22,409 nt of DNA from a virus. Positions 59 to 21,997 of this stretch are shown one piece after another (within the stretch, counting starts at the first letter, position 1; the number at the start of each line of letters is the position of its first letter). A program made the translations under genes and the position numbers. The stretch spans positions 1 through 22,409 of IMG/VR virus record IMGVR_UViG_3300047586_000100; one strand, written 5' to 3'. The notes beneath the pieces were generated by a model. It was given only the letters and a program-made list of their open reading frames with translations. It did not search any database and had not been told where the DNA came from.

Positions 59-127
59 TAGGAGACGACAGAGACAGCCGCCTCGTCACGGTAGTTGTCC
101 ACATTCCGCGCGGGAAGGTGCATAGCG

Positions 128-220
128 ATGGACAAAGCCACGAGATGGCAGGCTGTTGGGTTGTTGTTGCTGGCGGTCGTAGCCCCGATCCTGCTGGCGC
201 TGCTGCTGCTCAGGGGCTAA
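128..220 (+). CDS. 30-residue single-span membrane peptide
   Basis: This short ORF encodes a charged N-terminus (MDKATRWQ) followed by an almost unbroken run of about 20 Leu/Val/Ala/Ile residues and a terminal Arg-Gly, so one transmembrane helix fills the peptide. A good Shine-Dalgarno (GGGAAGG at 112-118) sits 9 bases before the ATG, and the downstream lipoprotein gene has the same kind of site. The stop codon at 218-220 lies 17 bases before the lipoprotein start, which suggests one transcript. Function is not known. A small membrane partner of the lipoprotein or a holin-like peptide are possibilities. A spanin pair is unlikely because the neighbour is much larger than Rz1-type lipoproteins and the genes are away from the lysis genes. 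Confidence 0.5.
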   Translation: MDKATRWQAVGLLLLAVVAPILLALLLLRG

Positions 221-237
221 CGGAAGGTCGCGAGAAT

Positions 238-855
238 ATGAGACGGATGGCATTGGTTCTGAGCCTGGCGGCAACCCTGGCAGCGGCCGGGTGCTCAGCT
301 CAGGCGGTCGGCACGGTCACGCCGGCCAAGCCTACCGGTTCGGCATCGACATCGGCTGCCGGGGCGAGTCCTGCGGCGGCGATCTCGACCGAAACGCCGC
401 TTCTAACGGCCAGCCCCACGCCCGCAGGTCCCAAGACCTACCAGATCGGCGACACCGTCACTGTGATCCAAGGCGGCTCGGATTGGGCGAAGATCATGAT
501 TTCCGACGTCAAGGTGGTCAGCTCCTACAAGGGCACTTACAGCAACGACAAGCCGCAGATCGCAGGCAACGTCTTCATCCAGGCCAAGGTCAGCTATGAA
601 GCCCTCACCGATGGCGTCGACTACAACCCATTCGACTGGCAGGTCTTCTGCGCCGGCGAGGCCGTCCAGAACTACTCCATCGTCCTCTACGGTCCGGAGC
701 CAAGGCTCTCGTCGGGTACGCTGCCGAATGGCCGGAAGGCCTCGGGTTACGTCGTCTATGAGGTCGCGCCTGCTGGCGAGGTGCGGATGTCCTACCGCGG
801 CAACATGTTTAGCAACGAGGGGCCCGTGTTCGAGGTGGTTATCCGAGCCTCCTAG
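238..855 (+). CDS. Secreted lipoprotein with DUF4352-like domain
   Basis: The 205-residue protein starts with MRRMALVLSLAATLAAAGC, a short lipoprotein signal peptide with the acylated Cys at residue 19. A Ser/Thr/Ala/Pro-rich linker of about 45 residues follows. The rest is a beta-rich domain opening with YQIGDTVTVIQ and ending in FEVVIRAS, which resembles the immunoglobulin-like DUF4352 family of Gram-positive surface lipoproteins; this assignment is by eye. The ATG at 238 was chosen because it begins the signal peptide and has GGAAGG about 10 bases upstream. A longer in-frame start at 118 would bury the signal sequence. The gene opposes the phage operon and shares its intergenic end with the terminator at 864-893. 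It could be a lysogenic-conversion or superinfection-exclusion gene, or a host gene flanking a prophage. Confidence 0.8.
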   Translation: MRRMALVLSLAATLAAAGCSAQAVGTVTPAKPTGSASTSAAGASPAAAISTETPLLTASPTPAGPKTYQIGDTVTVIQGGSDWAKIMISDVKVVSSYKGTYSNDKPQIAGNVFIQAKVSYEALTDGVDYNPFDWQVFCAGEAVQNYSIVLYGPEPRLSSGTLPNGRKASGYVVYEVAPAGEVRMSYRGNMFSNEGPVFEVVIRAS

Positions 856-1380: not shown

Positions 1381-4300
1381 TTAGTATCCAGTCTCCACTA
1401 GAGCGTAGTAGCGAAATGTCCATGCCACGACGGTTCCTGAGATGGTAAGAGCGGACGCCCACATGCCTGTATGTCCAGACGACGGCATCCAGCATTCCGA
1501 TGAGTTGTACTGAAGTGCTGCCCCGTTTGCGTTGTTGAAGTTGAGGAAAGGCATTGTGGCAGAGTACCCAGATTGCTGCTGAAACCACAGAGATGCGGGC
1601 ACATATGTGAGTCCCGTCGACAGGTTGACTGTGTTCGTATTCTGTACTGGGGCCGTACCGTTGGCGGGGACCGTGATTGTACCCGTCGCCACGATCTTGA
1701 ATATGTCGCTCGTACCGTCGATGATGACGGTCGAGCCGGCGTTGGTGACGGTCAATTCGCCGTTGGTGATCGCGACGCCGGTCGAATCGATCGTCACATG
1801 GCCCGCGGCGTCGTAGGCGGCGGGGTAGAACTCGATCGCATCGAACGCGACCTGAGCAGTTGCAGTCGAAGTCGCCGGACTGTAGGGCCTCACCCGCGCG
1901 AAAGCCGCATCGCTCGGCGCGGCGACTCGGCCCGTCTCTTCAATCCAGGTCGCCGACGCCCCCACGTTGTAGTTCGTGAACACTGCAGTGTTGGCCGTGG
2001 CCGAGGCCGAGCCGTCTGCTTTGTACCACTGGATGTAGAGGCTCGCATACGCGGGTGAGGTGTTCAGGTAGTAGCCCCGGACCCAGGCCCGGACGCCGTA
2101 GATCTCTCCAGGGCTAACCGGGACCAGCGCCGAATAGACGGACATGGCCGCAGGCGTAGAACCCTGGATCAGCTGCATGCAATTGGCGCCCTGATAGGGC
2201 GAACCCTGCCACACCCTGATGGTGCTTCCGGCCGGATGAACGACGAGCTCCCAACCGGGCACGGCCGCTGCCAGTAGCGCGTTGGTGGAAAGGTCCGCGC
2301 CTATCGAGCCGACGTAGTTCTCGAAACTGCCGTTGGGACAGGTGTTCCGGTTGATCCCGACCGAGAGCTGAGTCGCGCCGATTGCGCCGGCGGCGATCTG
2401 GGCGGCCGTGATGGTGTTGGCAGCGATCTGCGAGGCCGTGATGGTGCCGGCCACCATCCGGTCACCCGTGATCGTGCCCGCCGTGATGTCCGCCCCGTCG
2501 GTGGCCTTGACCCAGACGTTCGCGACGTTGCGGTAGAGTTTGCCGTCAGTCGTAAGGAAGACCACGAAGCCGATGGGATACGCAGCGTTGGGCAGGCCCG
2601 GCAGCGAGCCGACCGGTGGGATGCCGGAAAAGCCCACGGGCAGGCTCTGATTGATGGCGTTAACCCAGGACCCGCTGAGGTTCTGGTAGAGCTTATGGTC
2701 GGTCGTGAGGATGGCGTAGGAGTCCGCCGGATAGTTCGTATCCGGCAGGCCGGGGAGGGCGGAGACGATCACGACAGGCCGAACCCACGGGGCGAACGGC
2801 TCTATGCCGACGGTGCCAGTGCCGATCTTCTTACCGACGACGGATCGCGGCGGCGGGGCCGAGTAGGCCCAGAGCGGGATGAGCCCGCCGAACTGGATGT
2901 CGTAGGCCTTCGTGTTGCCGCCGGCGAAGTAGTAGCGGGTGACGAGGTTGATGCGGAAGTAGGTGTCCGTCCAGATGTCGAAGTGGGCCGCATACCTGAT
3001 GTCGAGGATCTGCCCGGGCTTCCAGCCGTTCGCCCCGGTGATGTGGACCTGGCCCTGGAGCGAGGGCCAGGCGTTGGTGTCGAGGAGCGCGTTGCCGACG
3101 GCCTGGGCCATCGCCCAGGTGGTGGCGTTCGGCGCGTCGTAATACGCTTCGCGCCGGCCGTAGGCTGTGATGCTGCCAGAATTCGTGACCCAGCCGCTGC
3201 CGGCCGCGTTCGCGCCTCGCATGTAGTAGGCGTTGACGAGCGACTTGCTGTCGCGGGTGATGGTGAACGGTTCCTCGGGGTTGACCTCGCCGCCAGCGGG
3301 GGTCCGGGTATCGAGCGCGAACGGCGCTGTGTCTGCCGTGGAGTTCGTGACGTGAAGCAGGCCCGCGCCGTCGGACCAGTAGTACCAGCCGGTGCCGGCC
3401 AGTGAGCAGGTCATCTCGATTGCGCCGCGCAGGGTCGTGTTTTCCAGCAGGCAGGCCGGGAGCGAAGGCCCCGGGTTGACGATGTACGTCCAGATCTGGG
3501 GCATCAACGGCCCGTAGGTCGAGAGGAGATAGACCATCCGGGCATAGAGCGTCTCGGCCGGCCGCGACTCGGAGGGCACGAGGGAGAGGTCGAGGATCTC
3601 GCCGAGGTCGTCGCACGTCAGCTGGAACGACCGACCGTTGCCCAGGGTATCGAGCTGGGCCGGGTTGAGGTAGCCCGTGAAGACGAAGCGGCCGTCGTTG
3701 TTGTCCCAGAGCTGCGTCAGGGCTTTGGGGGCGAGTCCCAGGCTGATGGTCGAGTCCAGCACGGTGCAGTTGAGCTGCCCAGGCTGGCGGCAGCCGGACT
3801 CCACGACGACATAGGAAGACAGGTCCGTGAGGCCCGTGATGTCCAGGCCCCCGACCCAGAGGGTGAGCGGCGAGGGGCCGAGGCTGGCGGAGGCCCAAAG
3901 GGCGGCGCGCTGTGTGGCTTTAAGCCATGTAGCCCATACCGCAATCTCGTCGAGCGACCCGTTGAAGTAGTTGCCGGTGGTCCAGCACTGGGCGACATCG
4001 AGGACCGAGGTATTGGTGAGATTGCGGGTCGACTCGCTGGAGATGTTAACGGGTGAACCGCTGATCGCGCCGTCGATGTACCAGACGCCGTTGCCGCCGC
4101 GGTCCATGACGAGCAGGGCGTGATGCCAGGCCCCATCCGCCAAACCCGAGGCGCTGGTGACGATCAGCGCGCCAATCGGGGTGCGAAGCTGCCCCGCCGT
4201 GTCCATATAGGCTCCCCAGCCGTTAGAGCCGTCGCCGCGGTACAGGATGAACTCGGGAGCCGTCGGATTGCCGCTGCGCTTGAAGAGGAAGCTCAGGCTG

Positions 4301-4557
4301 TAGTTGCCGGTTCCGAAGTTGTAGGCGGCGTTGGACGTGGCTTCCATGTACTCGGAGGACGCCGAGGCGAAACCTGCCGCGGTGTCCGAGTCGTTGACCA
4401 AGGGGCCGGCTATCCCGAGAGCCGGGGTGTTGTAGTAGATCCCGTTATTCGCGATCGGTGAGATGTCATGAGCGACGGTGCCCGACGGCTCCCCGAGGCG
4501 GTAGTAGGCAACCAGGTTCGGGATGTTGAGGACGACCAGATCGTAGGGGGCGGTCAT
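1381..4557 (-). CDS. Tail hub / receptor-binding protein with LamG and CBM-like domains
   Basis: The 1058-residue protein starts in an ATGA overlap with the tape measure stop. Residues ~10-225 form a LamG/concanavalin-type lectin domain (GAWHHALLVMDRGGNGVWYIDG, then FNGSLDEIAVW). Residues ~230-570 look like a phage tail hub (LTLWVGGLDITGL, FVFTGYLNPAQL, LTCDDLGEILDL). Residues 598-634 and 649-685 are two copies of one module (LPGLP..YP..LTTD.KLY.N..W). Residues ~690-733 repeat AGTIT/AxQIAA, as in trimeric fibre connectors. Residues ~740-912 resemble a CBM4/9-type carbohydrate-binding fold (CPNGSFE to VAFDAIEFYP). The last ~130 residues form a beta-rich tip. It likely docks under the tail tube and binds surface glycans. 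No separate distal tail protein is visible. DNA coding for the last ~80 residues is about 54% GC by my count, clearly below the rest. Confidence 0.85.
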   Translation of the reverse strand: MTAPYDLVVLNIPNLVAYYRLGEPSGTVAHDISPIANNGIYYNTPALGIAGPLVNDSDTAAGFASASSEYMEATSNAAYNFGTGNYSLSFLFKRSGNPTAPEFILYRGDGSNGWGAYMDTAGQLRTPIGALIVTSASGLADGAWHHALLVMDRGGNGVWYIDGAISGSPVNISSESTRNLTNTSVLDVAQCWTTGNYFNGSLDEIAVWATWLKATQRAALWASASLGPSPLTLWVGGLDITGLTDLSSYVVVESGCRQPGQLNCTVLDSTISLGLAPKALTQLWDNNDGRFVFTGYLNPAQLDTLGNGRSFQLTCDDLGEILDLSLVPSESRPAETLYARMVYLLSTYGPLMPQIWTYIVNPGPSLPACLLENTTLRGAIEMTCSLAGTGWYYWSDGAGLLHVTNSTADTAPFALDTRTPAGGEVNPEEPFTITRDSKSLVNAYYMRGANAAGSGWVTNSGSITAYGRREAYYDAPNATTWAMAQAVGNALLDTNAWPSLQGQVHITGANGWKPGQILDIRYAAHFDIWTDTYFRINLVTRYYFAGGNTKAYDIQFGGLIPLWAYSAPPPRSVVGKKIGTGTVGIEPFAPWVRPVVIVSALPGLPDTNYPADSYAILTTDHKLYQNLSGSWVNAINQSLPVGFSGIPPVGSLPGLPNAAYPIGFVVFLTTDGKLYRNVANVWVKATDGADITAGTITGDRMVAGTITASQIAANTITAAQIAAGAIGATQLSVGINRNTCPNGSFENYVGSIGADLSTNALLAAAVPGWELVVHPAGSTIRVWQGSPYQGANCMQLIQGSTPAAMSVYSALVPVSPGEIYGVRAWVRGYYLNTSPAYASLYIQWYKADGSASATANTAVFTNYNVGASATWIEETGRVAAPSDAAFARVRPYSPATSTATAQVAFDAIEFYPAAYDAAGHVTIDSTGVAITNGELTVTNAGSTVIIDGTSDIFKIVATGTITVPANGTAPVQNTNTVNLSTGLTYVPASLWFQQQSGYSATMPFLNFNNANGAALQYNSSECWMPSSGHTGMWASALTISGTVVAWTFRYYALVETGY

Positions 4558-6743
4558 GAGCTGGCTACCAGGCCGCGGGTGACGGCCGGCATCAGGCGGC
4601 CTATGGCTTCGTTCACAATCTGGCCCAGGATCCGCTTGTCGACCATGATCTGGAGGGTGGTAGCGCCGGTCCCGGCGCCCGCTGCCGAGACCCCCCCGGG
4701 TATGCCGAACTGGCGCATCTTGCTCTCGGGGATGACGTATTCGCGCTCGCCGCCCTCACCGAGCCAAGCGAGAGTCGGCTTGCTTACGCTGCCGCCTTCG
4801 GCGAAGTGCGGCAGGTGGTCGAGCGGGTTGAAGTCGATGTGGCTGATGTTGTCCATCAGCGTCTGAAGACTGTGGAGCGGGTCGAGCATGTCCCGGAAGA
4901 GGTCCGTGATGGTGCCGATGGGCTCGAAGAGGCCGTGGAGGGCGTCGCCGCCCCGCTTCGCCCAGTAAGCGAGACCGCCGGTGTCGTTCAGGTAGCCGTT
5001 CAGCCATCCCAGGAGGGGCAGGATGGGATAGAGCATCGAAGCGAGACCGCCCACCGGGGAGAGCTTCTCATTGAGCCACTGGAGCGGTTGGAGGACAAAC
5101 GTGTTGATGATGCCGCCCGTCACCCCGACGGCGCCCGCGAGCCCACCCATGGCGCCCAGGAGCTGCGCAAGGGCCACTCTGAGGTCCGCGCCTGCCTTGA
5201 CCCCCGCATCCCGGGCGCTGGTGGCGTTCGTGGTGAAATCTTTGAGGGCGCCGGCCATGGTGGTGTTCAGGCCGGTGAACGTAGAGCCGACGATGGGCGC
5301 AATGGCCCCGACGCCGGCCGTGATGCCGCCATTCACGGCCTGGTGGGCGGCCAGGAGATCGGCCAGATGCTGCTTCTCCGCGTTAAGCTCGGCGAGCTGG
5401 GCCGCTTCGTCCTGCTTCTTCTTCCAGTCCGTGAGGCTGACTTCAGTGGTCTGGACCTTGTCCTTGGCCGCGAGGATGTCGGCCTCGCGCTTCTGCTGGG
5501 CCTTGATCTGCTCGGCGGCACTGAGGCCGTAGGTGTCGACGGAGGACGCCTGGAGGTTCGCGAGCTCGGTCTTCGCGTCGGTGATCGCCTTTTCGAGGTC
5601 GGCCTGCTGCTGCTGAGCCTGCTCCGTGGCCTGGAGATCCTTGAGCGCGGCGATCTGGGCGCTGATGGCCGCGGTCTGCGCCTTGATCGACTCGGCATAG
5701 GGGTCCTTTGCCGATCCGCCGCCCCCCCCGCCGCCAGCCGCCGGCGCGGCGCCGACTGTGCCGGGTGCTGGCCTGTTAACGGGAGCGGGCGCGCTGGATT
5801 CGCCGCCTGGTCCACCGGCCGGTCCGCCGGCCGCCCCGCCGAAGTCGACTCCAAAGATGCCGCCGATCACGCCCATGACGAAGTTGGCCACGGACACGGC
5901 GTACGCCACGATGTCGTTGAGGTGGGCCTCGACATAGGCGCCGAAAGAGGTCACGAACCCCTCGAGCGTCGGCTCGAGCCCGGCGAAGATCGAGGTCTGG
6001 ATCCCGGTGACGATGTTGCCGAGATTGCCCATCTCGATCCCGAAGCGGTGGGCGGCATCGGTCGTGCTCTGGTCCAGGACCATGCCGGCGTTGCCCGCGT
6101 CGATCGTGAGCTGCCGCATCTGCGCATCGGTCAGGTTCAGGAAGTCGAGCATCGTGTAGCCGGTGCGGCTGAAGAGCTCCTGCGCCGCTGCCGTCTTCGC
6201 GAGCGAGTCTCCCTGCGAGGAGAACGCCTGCTGCAGATTGCGGATGATCGTGTAGGTGTCGAGGAATTGCCCGTTCGCGTCGCGGGTCGCGATGCCCAGA
6301 TTGGTGAACAGCTTCTCGTGGGTATCGAGGTTCTTGCCGAACATCGCGAAGAGGCGGTCCGCGGTGCCCATGTCCACGCCGAGCTCGCGCATGATCGCGG
6401 CGAGAGAGCTGGTCTGCTCCGCCGTCATGCCGGTTTCGATCTGCAGCTGGTAGATCTGCTGGGCCCAGGCGTAGCCCGCCTCGACGGCCTGGGGGATGGC
6501 ATCGACGATGCGGCCGATCGCGTTGGTCAGGTCGTTGAAGAGCGAGATGCCGATGCCGATGCCGATGCCCTGGGCGATCGACCCGAATGCCGACAGCGCG
6601 CCCGACAGCTTGCCGGTCTTGGTCGCGCTCTCCTCGGCGGTGCCGCCCAACTGGGTGATGAGGCCATGGACGGACTTCAGGGTCGCGGTTGCCTCATCGA
6701 CCGCCCGGACGATGATCTGGAGCTGTTCGTCGTTGCTACCCAT
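4554..6743 (-). CDS. Tape measure protein
   Basis: The 729-residue protein sets tail length and is threaded through the tail tube in siphoviruses. It begins MGSNDEQLQIIVRAVDEATA, a usual tape-measure opening. A hydrophobic Gly/Ile-rich stretch follows near residues 50-75, then a helical region. A poly-Gly linker lies near residue 340, followed by a long Ala/Gln/Glu coiled coil (~350-465). A second hydrophobic region lies near 540-590. The C-terminal motif HFAEGGSVSKP...GEGGEREYVIPE (about 646-672) is the signature found near the end of many tape measure proteins. The start has GGAGG ten bases upstream and lies 6 bases past the chaperone stop. By the usual ~1.5 angstrom per residue rule, the tail would be about 110 nm; this is inference. 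Confidence 0.93.
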   Translation of the reverse strand: MGSNDEQLQIIVRAVDEATATLKSVHGLITQLGGTAEESATKTGKLSGALSAFGSIAQGIGIGIGISLFNDLTNAIGRIVDAIPQAVEAGYAWAQQIYQLQIETGMTAEQTSSLAAIMRELGVDMGTADRLFAMFGKNLDTHEKLFTNLGIATRDANGQFLDTYTIIRNLQQAFSSQGDSLAKTAAAQELFSRTGYTMLDFLNLTDAQMRQLTIDAGNAGMVLDQSTTDAAHRFGIEMGNLGNIVTGIQTSIFAGLEPTLEGFVTSFGAYVEAHLNDIVAYAVSVANFVMGVIGGIFGVDFGGAAGGPAGGPGGESSAPAPVNRPAPGTVGAAPAAGGGGGGGSAKDPYAESIKAQTAAISAQIAALKDLQATEQAQQQQADLEKAITDAKTELANLQASSVDTYGLSAAEQIKAQQKREADILAAKDKVQTTEVSLTDWKKKQDEAAQLAELNAEKQHLADLLAAHQAVNGGITAGVGAIAPIVGSTFTGLNTTMAGALKDFTTNATSARDAGVKAGADLRVALAQLLGAMGGLAGAVGVTGGIINTFVLQPLQWLNEKLSPVGGLASMLYPILPLLGWLNGYLNDTGGLAYWAKRGGDALHGLFEPIGTITDLFRDMLDPLHSLQTLMDNISHIDFNPLDHLPHFAEGGSVSKPTLAWLGEGGEREYVIPESKMRQFGIPGGVSAAGAGTGATTLQIMVDKRILGQIVNEAIGRLMPAVTRGLVASS

Positions 6744-20419: not shown

Positions 20420-20554
20420 TTACGCCAAGGACGAGCCGGCGAAGAACGCCAGCCCTATGGCGATGAGGTTGAAGTCAGTCCTGACGCCCAGGGCCGCGAT
20501 CACGAAGCAGATCACGGCGATGACGAGCAGGACGGCGTGGGCGTTGACGATCAT
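20420..20554 (-). CDS. 44-residue membrane peptide, two short spans
   Basis: I place the start at ATG 20554, which overlaps the stop of the holin-like gene as ATGA. The longer ORF upstream is a shadow of that gene. The product reads MIVNAHAVLLVIAVICFVIA, a short turn with ALGVRTDF, then NLIAIGLAFFAGSSLA, giving two membrane segments joined by a small charged loop. Coupling to a two-span holin-like gene and position after the peptidase suggest a second holin, an antiholin or another lysis regulator. The assignment is by context. Confidence 0.68.
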   Translation of the reverse strand: MIVNAHAVLLVIAVICFVIAALGVRTDFNLIAIGLAFFAGSSLA

Positions 20555-20940
20555 GTCTTCAGCCAGCGGCCGGCCATCTTGTCTGCGAACGCGGGCGTCA
20601 TCTTCCAAAGATCGGCCCTGGGCGGTTGGGCGCCCTTCGCAGAGGCTTGGATATACCCGAACGCGCCGAGGAACCAGCTAATGACAGCAGGGGCGACCTT
20701 CGATCGCACCAGCACAACGGCCAGAGCCATGAGGACCGGCGCGGCGATCGTGGCGAATGCCACGAGCTCGGACCAGGCCGCGGCCGGCGAGTCGGGGATG
20801 GTCCAAGCGAACGCCTTGCCCATCGCGATCAGAGTGGCGGCGAGGATCGCTACCGAGTAGCCGAGAGCCTCTCGGACGGGCGCCGGGAGACGCAGCCACG
20901 CGTTGTGGATCGTGGCGACGATGGAACCGATGGTCTTCAT
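20551..20940 (-). CDS. Holin-like two-span membrane protein
   Basis: The start at ATG 20940 (AGGAG just upstream) gives 129 residues; the ORF extending to 21150 overlaps the peptidase gene and is a shadow. The N-terminus (MKTIGSIVATIHNAWLRLPA) leads to a membrane segment LGYSVAILAATLIAMGKAF, a short loop, and a second one FATIAAPVLMALAVVLV. The C-terminal ~45 residues are polar (SAKGAQPPRADLWKMT). Two spans, a polar C-terminus and the place directly after the peptidase fit a holin that releases or activates the lysin. Holins share little sequence, so this is structural and positional inference. Confidence 0.7.
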   Translation of the reverse strand: MKTIGSIVATIHNAWLRLPAPVREALGYSVAILAATLIAMGKAFAWTIPDSPAAAWSELVAFATIAAPVLMALAVVLVRSKVAPAVISWFLGAFGYIQASAKGAQPPRADLWKMTPAFADKMAGRWLKT

Positions 20941-20947
20941 GGCTCTC

Positions 20948-21997
20948 CTATCCCCACTTCGCGACGGGAGTCCCGCCGACGGTGCCTGTGATGACGAAAG
21001 TGGTGGGACCGGTTTGTAGCGGCGTGTAGTCGCCCGTCTTCGCACCGTTGAACATCTTGCCGAAGGCGACGAGATCGCCGGCGACGACCAGATACCAGAC
21101 GGCGTCGGGGCCGTTAGCCGTTCCAGATCCCACGACCGGCGTCGCGCCACGAGGAAGGATCGGGGTGAGCGTCCCGTCCTTCATTCGGAAAGCCTGGTGG
21201 TCCGAGGTGATGTTCAGCGAGCCGATGAGGTCGTAGGTTCCGGGTTGCATGTTGTCCTCCGGGATGGGCAGGACGCGGCCTGTCAGTGTTTGGAAGGCGT
21301 CGGCCAGGGCTGGCAGATCCATGCCCGCCATGAACTCCTTGGACTTGAGATGCTCGGGCAGGATGACGCCCCAGGTCCCGCCAACGTCGTGCGCCCAGAA
21401 CGCCTGGGTGAGGCCGTTCTCGCGGGTCCAGGTCTCCATCCGCACGTCGTCGGCCGCGGTGTCCCTGTGGCCGGCGGACAGGATCGAGTGGTAGCCCTTG
21501 ATCGGGGAGAGGGGGTGGTAGTCCCACGGCCTTCTCGCGTTGTAGTCGTCGTAGGTGGCGTCGCGCACGGTGACCGACGTCCAGACGAAGCCGAAGATCG
21601 AGATGGCGGCGTCGTGCTTGTCGAGGCTGACCGTGCCGAACGCCACGATGTCGCCGCGCTTCTGGAGGTACTCCAGGAGCGTCTGAATGTCCATGCCGTT
21701 GTCTTCGGCGGGGTAGTTGGGGTTCTGGGTCTTGTAGATCGCGACGATCTCGGCGTCGGTCAGGATGATCTCCCTGCCGCCCAGGATCGCCGAGACGAGG
21801 GCCTTGACGGCCGCCCAGGTGGCAGCGACGCACGTTCCCTTGAGGTTGTTGAGCCACCAGGGCCAGGTCGACCGGTAGCCCAGGTAATCGACCGGCGGCG
21901 TCGCCGGCAGGACTCCGGTGAAGAAGTCCGACAGGGTCAACGCAGGCTTGTTGATGGGCGGCCGACAGCCGAGCTTGGGAAGGATCGGGTCAGACAT
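20948..21997 (-). CDS. Papain-like cysteine peptidase, probable endolysin
   Basis: The 349-residue protein has a papain-type layout. The likely nucleophile is Cys56 in LKGTCVAATWAAVKAL, where a helix follows the Cys as in the C1 family. The likely His is His170 in KGYHSILSAGH, and a third-residue region lies in WTRENGLTQAFW (Asn194). No signal peptide is present. The C-terminal ~120 residues form a different beta-rich part (TYDLIGSLNITSDHQAFRM; VWYLVVAGDLVAFGKMFNG), possibly cell-wall binding. Next to a holin-like gene the best role is peptidoglycan peptide cleavage at lysis. A structural or host-directed protease is the alternative. AGAGGTGG precedes the ATG, which overlaps the HNH-like gene by 8 bases. 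Confidence 0.7.
   Translation of the reverse strand: MSDPILPKLGCRPPINKPALTLSDFFTGVLPATPPVDYLGYRSTWPWWLNNLKGTCVAATWAAVKALVSAILGGREIILTDAEIVAIYKTQNPNYPAEDNGMDIQTLLEYLQKRGDIVAFGTVSLDKHDAAISIFGFVWTSVTVRDATYDDYNARRPWDYHPLSPIKGYHSILSAGHRDTAADDVRMETWTRENGLTQAFWAHDVGGTWGVILPEHLKSKEFMAGMDLPALADAFQTLTGRVLPIPEDNMQPGTYDLIGSLNITSDHQAFRMKDGTLTPILPRGATPVVGSGTANGPDAVWYLVVAGDLVAFGKMFNGAKTGDYTPLQTGPTTFVITGTVGGTPVAKWG

Follow-up and report, generated by a model that had tools for sequence, protein, structure and literature searches.

The left end of the window (the whole stretch analysed, an entire IMG/VR record that forms a linear fragment of 22,409 bp) carries two plus-strand genes, for a 30-residue membrane peptide and a 205-residue lipoprotein, which face the minus-strand late operon across a UUCG hairpin. 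The pair is likely to be cargo for the lysogenic state. That it is a lysogenic conversion cassette (a 'moron') with superinfection exclusion as its probable function is, by analogy with known systems, about evenly balanced; if the pair is taken to be lysogenic cargo, exclusion would by the same analogy have a slightly better than even chance. Conversion is the best reading because, in five relatives, the slot that separates the late operon from a regulator-like HTH gene holds mostly exported or membrane-bound cargo. Of the two-part exclusion or conversion unit proposed in the original prediction, conversion is therefore the favoured half, Ltp and other prophage defence genes in such positions make exclusion a fair guess, and the peptide as a conserved second part is unsupported.

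The late operon fills most of the window (terminase, portal, protease, capsid, tape measure and tail genes), and the phage is probably tailed and temperate, with a host in Chloroflexota. The fragment is cut just to the left of the pair, its edge lying 127 nt before the peptide start. Positions 1–93 are apparently non-coding, each of the six frames having a negative score across roughly the first 127 nt. They are followed on the plus strand by a conserved leader (94–131, GTTGTCCACATTCCGCGCGGGAAGG...), which matches relative L002, reaches the peptide start and is likely a promoter or 5′UTR with a ribosome-binding site, by the peptide gene (128–220) and by the lipoprotein gene (238–855). On the minus strand lie the terminator-like hairpin of the late operon (868–893), between the convergent units, and the operon's last gene (919–1380), which encodes a 153-residue protein of no recognised family. 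Both predicted ORFs with matching ribosome sites are confirmed, with GGAAGG placed 9 nt before the peptide start (113–118) and 10 nt before the lipoprotein start (222–227). No integrase was found in the window in a search of nine phage records that included it, and no repressor was noticed there. At the other end of the window, the probable lysis region of the late operon (20420–21997) contains membrane ORFs of 44 and 129 residues; a 349-residue protein beside them matches phrog_19005 (E=9e-10).

The lipoprotein ORF is coding beyond doubt. Its frame has a codon log-likelihood of +33.6, against −36.6 to −156.1 for the five other frames, and comparison with three homologues from residue 61 on gives dN of 0.21–0.35 and dS of 1.03–1.20, a sign that the head is under purifying selection. 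The ORF caller used here prefers an alternative start, the in-frame ATG at 247. The protein consists of a signal peptide with Cys19 (AAGC), a 45-residue linker in which 33 residues are S, T, A or P, and a beta-sandwich head at approximately 69–205. A classical lipobox has Leu at −3, which the AAGC of the window lacks; the cysteine position is present in seven of the eight rows of the lipoprotein alignment A2 that reach it (L035 being the exception), and also in the homologue of the satellite-like element L054, described below.

The head is predicted to resemble, as an approximate fold, a telokin-like Ig beta-sandwich of the YcdA/MPT63 type. The structure model, built from only two sequences, has a mean pLDDT of 53.7, with 44–74 by block in the head; an earlier single-sequence model (pLDDT 38) was useless and was left out of the fold search. 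The modelled head matches YcdA with a Z of 12.2 over 121 residues, followed by YjhA (9.9), YxkC (9.8) and MPT63 (9.2), the first unrelated row being at 8.0. B. subtilis YcdA and M. tuberculosis MPT63, as DUF4352/telokin-like exported proteins, share the exported beta-sandwich fold; they differ in being host proteins rather than phage cargo, and the window lipoprotein scores 15.8 bits with DUF4352 (PF11611), under the Pfam gathering cut-off of 25.9. The L054 homologue reaches 21.4 bits, and DUF4352 matches seven of the nine members of A2 (best E=0.00086). The family profile found nothing convincing among PDB sequences, and PF07553, the Ltp repeat family, gave no match to the window lipoprotein at E<=1. 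Viral fold matches include DUF4352 and DUF5067 proteins and, more weakly and both with large rmsd, the lipoproteins of Rhodococcus phage Sleepyhead (E 1e-4, TM 0.40) and Gordonia phage Eyre (E 4e-4, TM 0.34, rmsd 20.4). Matches to phrog_806 are weak for the window lipoprotein and for Eyre gp34 alike (E=1.4e-4 and 0.006).

The peptide (MDKATRWQAVGLLLLAVVAPILLALLLLRG; ATG ORF, single membrane span) is probably a real gene: the signal exceeds chance, is weaker than that of the lipoprotein and falls short of certainty. Its frame has the best codon score of the six, +1.4 against −1.0 to −24.1, which is below the threshold of the ORF caller used here. The mean hydropathy over 17 residues is 3.22, whereas none of 6365 ATG ORFs of 20–50 residues in 40 first-order Markov windows reaches 3.0; in the real window one other ORF of 141 in this size range does so, at 20420–20554 in the probable lysis region. 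An attenuator leader (11 of the 30 residues are Leu) was ruled out by the 17-nt gap between the genes and by the lack of structure above shuffles, and an N-terminal extension of the lipoprotein frame by that frame's score of −8.6 over 128–217. That the 30-residue peptide is a conserved partner is unsupported: no homologue was found in 20 other records, and phrog_37706 gave only a weak match (E=0.0045). It is the weakest part of the cassette, in which it may possibly have a role.

Scans with the last late gene (919–1380) as synteny anchor gave ten viral loci and two in MAGs titled 'Chloroflexi bacterium', 12 loci in all; L004, L009 and L011 break off no more than about 1.1 kb from the anchor, which leaves nine informative. 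In five of these (L002, L003, L005, L007 and L008) the late operon is followed by opposite-strand cargo, a same-strand regulator-like HTH gene and a divergent HTH gene, with one or two further small genes at the late-operon end before the cargo in L007 and L008. The cargo-side HTH gene is of the Cro/C1 type (HTH_3) in L002, L003 and L005, with scores of 24.8, 23.1 and 23.7 bits (cut-off 23); the regulators of L007 and L008 were judged by eye. The remaining four (L006, L010, L012 and L013) show, by eye, neither such a regulator nor cargo within about 3.5 kb. The slot thus adjoins the regulator region in five of nine informative relatives, and the window fragment stops before that place. A scan with the tail protein gene (1381–4557) as synteny query returned no loci.

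The cassette lies outside the lytic operon and is read against it, in the window and in the relatives. The cargo in the slot is an N-terminally anchored protein in L002, a lipoprotein in L003, a cysteine-rich membrane protein in L005, a membrane protein in L008 and five genes, two of them for lipoproteins, in L007. By our own ORF caller and our own definition of 'exported', and in few phages, eight of nine slot cargo proteins are exported or membrane-bound; among the other called genes the figure is 20 of 148 (P ~9e-7). Tyrosine integrases were found in three of the nine phage records searched, window included (those of L003, L007 and L008), and serine recombinases in none of the nine. In L003 (6903–6922) and L008 (6968–6993) a UUCG terminator-like hairpin lies on the late strand past the opposite-strand cargo gene; late transcription may therefore run antisense through the cargo and silence it during lysis.

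Exchange of cargo within this slot is visible at the leader. Window positions 94–131 are identical to L002, directly upstream of the L002 cargo start, at 34 of 38 positions (89%, with a 20-nt perfect run; E=4e-7), while the 93 nt flanking the leader are no more alike than shuffled sequence. The same leader precedes unlike membrane genes, for the peptide in the window and for the N-terminally anchored protein in L002, which share no clear nucleotide similarity (52 of 99 aligned columns identical, a figure without shuffle control). A common leader with different genes behind it indicates a slot for exchangeable cargo. Among viral_contigs, a leader scan returned only the L002 record and L016, where the match is inside an ORF and is taken as chance. 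The leader core ACATTCCGCNCGG also lies 15 nt upstream of the lipoprotein homologue in host genome G046, and has 11 sites in eight host genomes against one for the reversed control. It was considered as a general host promoter and rejected: eight sites were read, and five of the seven besides the G046 lipoprotein site look coding by eye. A further motif in the leader, TTGTCCACA (window 95–103, present in the L002 leader too), has the look of a high-GC bacterial DnaA box.

The hairpin at 868–893 has ten pairs (one mismatch allowed), a UUCG loop and a TTTT tail on the minus strand; 11 of 200 shuffles fold equally well, and a standard terminator scan does not list it. It suits a terminator of the late operon. 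The suggestion that both units share it is only half supported, because there is no T-run in the plus direction. The stretch 855–919, where an attachment site had been considered, holds this hairpin, and the window contains no tRNA gene.

L012's host belongs to a Chloroflexota class of which 177 genomes were searched; nine of these have homologues of the lipoprotein at E<=1e-3, seven of them strong and 41–66% identical. A draw from the phylum, with at most eight candidates scored per genome, gave matches at E<=1e-10 in two of 400 genomes, both already in the class set. Several host copies look chromosomal with no phage genes noticed nearby (that of L033 lies beside translation genes, for example), so the lipoprotein family need not be a phage weapon. 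By eye, the L030 and L031 copies are near tyrosine-recombinase-like genes and the L035 copy is 3.5 kb from a serine-recombinase-like gene (range 0.3–3.5 kb); this proximity argument is weak because L065 has a like recombinase without the lipoprotein. The second L030 copy and the L035 copy follow, by eye, a zinc-ribbon-like segment and not a lipobox. An alignment of the tail gene had no match in the seven lipoprotein-bearing host genomes, in a search without positive control. As sole query the lipoprotein found no relative in viral_contigs, in phages (E<=1) or in plasmids (E<=0.01); the family alignment later found L054.

No membrane micro-ORF was detected within 400 nt upstream of the nine host copies, of which three (the second L030 copy, L035 and L036) have an uncertain true start; the same search recovers the peptide of the window. 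The pair thus did not turn up as a widespread, phage-free housekeeping locus, a finding that would have told against a phage role: its lipoprotein is patchy in hosts, and a small membrane gene precedes the lipoprotein in both phage-borne copies (the window and L054) and in none of the nine host copies.

L054 (214–11271) is an element of about 11 kb bounded by 64-nt repeats of a tRNA-Val gene (95%), with an integrase and both terminase subunits; no capsid gene was recognised among the nine of its 14 called proteins that were scanned, and it looks like a phage satellite of Chloroflexota. Convergent to its operon end, a 111-residue membrane gene is followed directly by a lipoprotein that is 60% identical to that of the window over 146 residues. 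The two lipoproteins are not sisters; starred tree branches force two changes, indicating separate acquisitions. Five copies of a 67-nt GC-rich repeat occupy gaps between the outer genes of L054 (363–429, 1865–1931, 2613–2679, 3787–3853 and 4464–4530), and this repeat has matches in 20 of the 177 class genomes at E<=1e-3, sometimes several per contig.

The membrane gene of L054 belongs to a loose family that also takes in the L008 cargo, which stands alone in its slot without a lipoprotein partner. The two proteins are linked only through L056 and L058 (L008–L058 E=7e-26, L054–L058 4e-5, L054–L056 2e-7, L008–L056 7e-6), their direct comparison not being significant. In genome G179 a gene of this family overlaps by 4 bp the gene of a two-repeat Ltp lipoprotein (PF07553, E=2.6e-25, 88.8 bits). 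Ltp occurs in two of the 177 class genomes; in the second, G105, no such upstream gene was seen by eye in the short locus. The predicted pairing of a membrane gene with a lipoprotein thus recurs, in L054 and with Ltp in G179, while the 30-residue peptide itself is unmatched. The G179 pair lies at 4872–5545 of locus L064, approximately 4 kb from a gene (195–836) that by eye resembles a rolling-circle initiator.

The closest analogue is Ltp of phage TP-J34, which belongs to the lysogeny module and is transcribed in the prophage; according to the available text of PMC3952083, it is held outside the membrane by a lipid anchor, has a Ser-rich spacer and a repeat domain, and blocks DNA injection, and many exclusion proteins have an N-terminal helix or a lipid anchor. 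The window protein is likewise a phage lipoprotein with a predicted lipid anchor, a low-complexity spacer and a folded head, and would share the lysogeny-side position described there for Ltp; in addition, the membrane family of L054 and L008 provides the partner gene of the G179 Ltp. The two differ in the head, which in the window is a predicted beta-sandwich lacking Ltp repeats, and exclusion by the window protein would follow by analogy only. Other prophage genes offer parallels in position and make-up. In the accessible portions of the sources, bstA is placed downstream of cI and is transcribed from the cI promoter (PMC7067206), and CarolAnn 43/44 are expressed together with the repressor and confer defence (PMC6426606). 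CarolAnn 43/44 and Sbash 30/31 are presented there as two-gene prophage defence systems with abortive infection as the proposed mechanism and an effector with four predicted membrane spans. Together with lambda rexAB they resemble the window pair as two-gene units with a membrane part; they are expressed in lysogeny, as the window pair would be, and CarolAnn 43/44 adjoin the repressor; they differ in that the partner is not described, in the same portions, as an exported lipoprotein, and that the Sbash pair lies away from the repressor. PADLOC 2.0 recognised none of six proteins (the pair and the cargo of four relatives) at E<=0.1. A literature search for DUF4352, lipoprotein and phage returned one paper, on Staphylococcus islands, and related searches found none that treats the family as exclusion proteins.

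On the preferred reading the pair would sit where the late operon gives way to an immunity region, whose presence in this phage we infer from the relatives. Because it is read from the opposite strand, it could be expressed at times of late-gene silence. After export the lipoprotein would be lipid-anchored at Cys19, presumably at the cell surface, where its flexible S/T/A/P linker could hold the telokin/YcdA-like head off the membrane, and exclusion would take place at the envelope, for example by interference with DNA entry of related phages. The 30-residue peptide may be a small partner of the lipoprotein.

Conversion could also be of another kind, in which a host envelope lipoprotein, active in ligand binding, the cell wall or stress, was captured to help the lysogen and not to block phages. 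The strong homologues in seven class genomes (several seemingly chromosomal), the fact that YcdA and other telokin-like lipoproteins belong to hosts, and the separate acquisition of the window and L054 copies all agree with such a capture. The patchiness of the homologues in hosts argues against it, as do, weakly in view of L065, the recombinase-like genes near the L030, L031 and L035 copies and, in addition, the pairing with an Ltp-linked membrane family, which points to exclusion; we regard it as possible, if somewhat unlikely. Whichever function applies, the lipoprotein might be all that matters, the 30-residue ORF being a leader, what is left of a previous membrane-anchored cargo, or a chance product. 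The peptide has no match in 20 other records, no counterpart upstream of the nine host copies and a codon score below the caller threshold, and the L002 copy of the leader precedes an N-terminally anchored protein. A chance origin sits badly with a hydropathy that none of the 6365 random ORFs attains and with the peptide's own ribosome-binding site; L054 likewise has a membrane gene directly upstream, and the comparison with the L002 gene, made without shuffle control, shows no clear nucleotide similarity. That the lipoprotein acts alone is a tenable view, held tentatively, without being the probable one.

An abortive-infection pair of the RexAB or CarolAnn 43/44 kind, in which the membrane peptide would be the effector that depolarises the cell once its partner senses infection, would suit a lysogeny-side unit of two genes, one of them for a membrane component. 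It is improbable, given an exported lipoprotein, one short span and no conserved peptide, whereas the known partners are not described as lipoproteins in the source text available and the effector there has four predicted spans. More improbable still is that the left end belongs to the chromosome of a host, next to an integrated prophage, and that the two genes are host genes. Host homologues of the lipoprotein do exist; the leader, however, has its match in the phage relative L002 at the corresponding position and in like orientation, five relatives have comparable cargo in the slot, no tRNA gene is present, and the nine host copies have no upstream membrane ORF. Finally, Rz/Rz1 pairs generally consist of a small membrane ORF and a lipoprotein after it, and the pair could on that ground be taken for a two-component spanin used in lysis. 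This can hardly be right: the genes are read against the late genes and lie some 20 kb away from the membrane ORFs at 20420–20940, the peptide has no outer domain, and the lipoprotein has a predicted beta-sandwich head and homologues in host genomes.

With a lysogenic conversion cassette as the preferred reading, the architecture is one already known, and what is new is the type of head, the host group and the recurring pairing with a membrane gene. It is conceivable, as a speculation that we consider unlikely to hold in full, that two-part surface-exclusion units form a common stock for the phages, satellites and further integrated elements of this Chloroflexota class. Each unit would pair a small membrane protein with a lipoprotein bearing an exchangeable head, either telokin-like or Ltp; the units would be put behind a conserved leader in one immunity-side slot and traded with the host, and the slot would then be a rapidly evolving, prophage-borne locus of surface defence. 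The slot beside the immunity genes is in any case a defined place to seek exclusion or conversion genes in Chloroflexota phages, hosts for which our literature search found no worked example of such genes. The recurring pairing, once with Ltp, leads to the prediction that telokin-type phage lipoproteins with no assigned role act in superinfection exclusion.

Gordonia phages, in which a lipoprotein of putative kinship occupies a like position, offer a cultivable place for testing. Homologues of Eyre gp34 occur in 34 phage records, all of Gordonia and some of them duplicates. In Eyre, gp34 is on the repressor's strand beside the integrase and repressor; in all three of the 34 records inspected the gp34-type lipoprotein is read against the late genes beside the integrase, with the repressor in view on its own strand in two. 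Eyre gp34 has no DUF4352 match and hhalign aligns it with the window family over only 28 columns, so that the kinship of the two lipoproteins is at best putative. The likeness lies in the orientation opposite to the late genes, the nearby integrase and small membrane-like peptides in the region; the differences are that these peptides lie on the opposite strand or at a distance of 1.4 kb, and that the host is actinobacterial. Taken loosely, the statement that the window peptide has no obvious known counterpart was too strong, in that three Gordonia phages have such peptides near the lipoprotein; they may be compared with it in size and region only. The peptides, of 26–39 residues, are found in Eyre (L084, 6448–6528), ThankyouJordi (L085, 4336–4455) and LordFarquaad (L086, 3960–4076), and share the sequence MLYDILAI.
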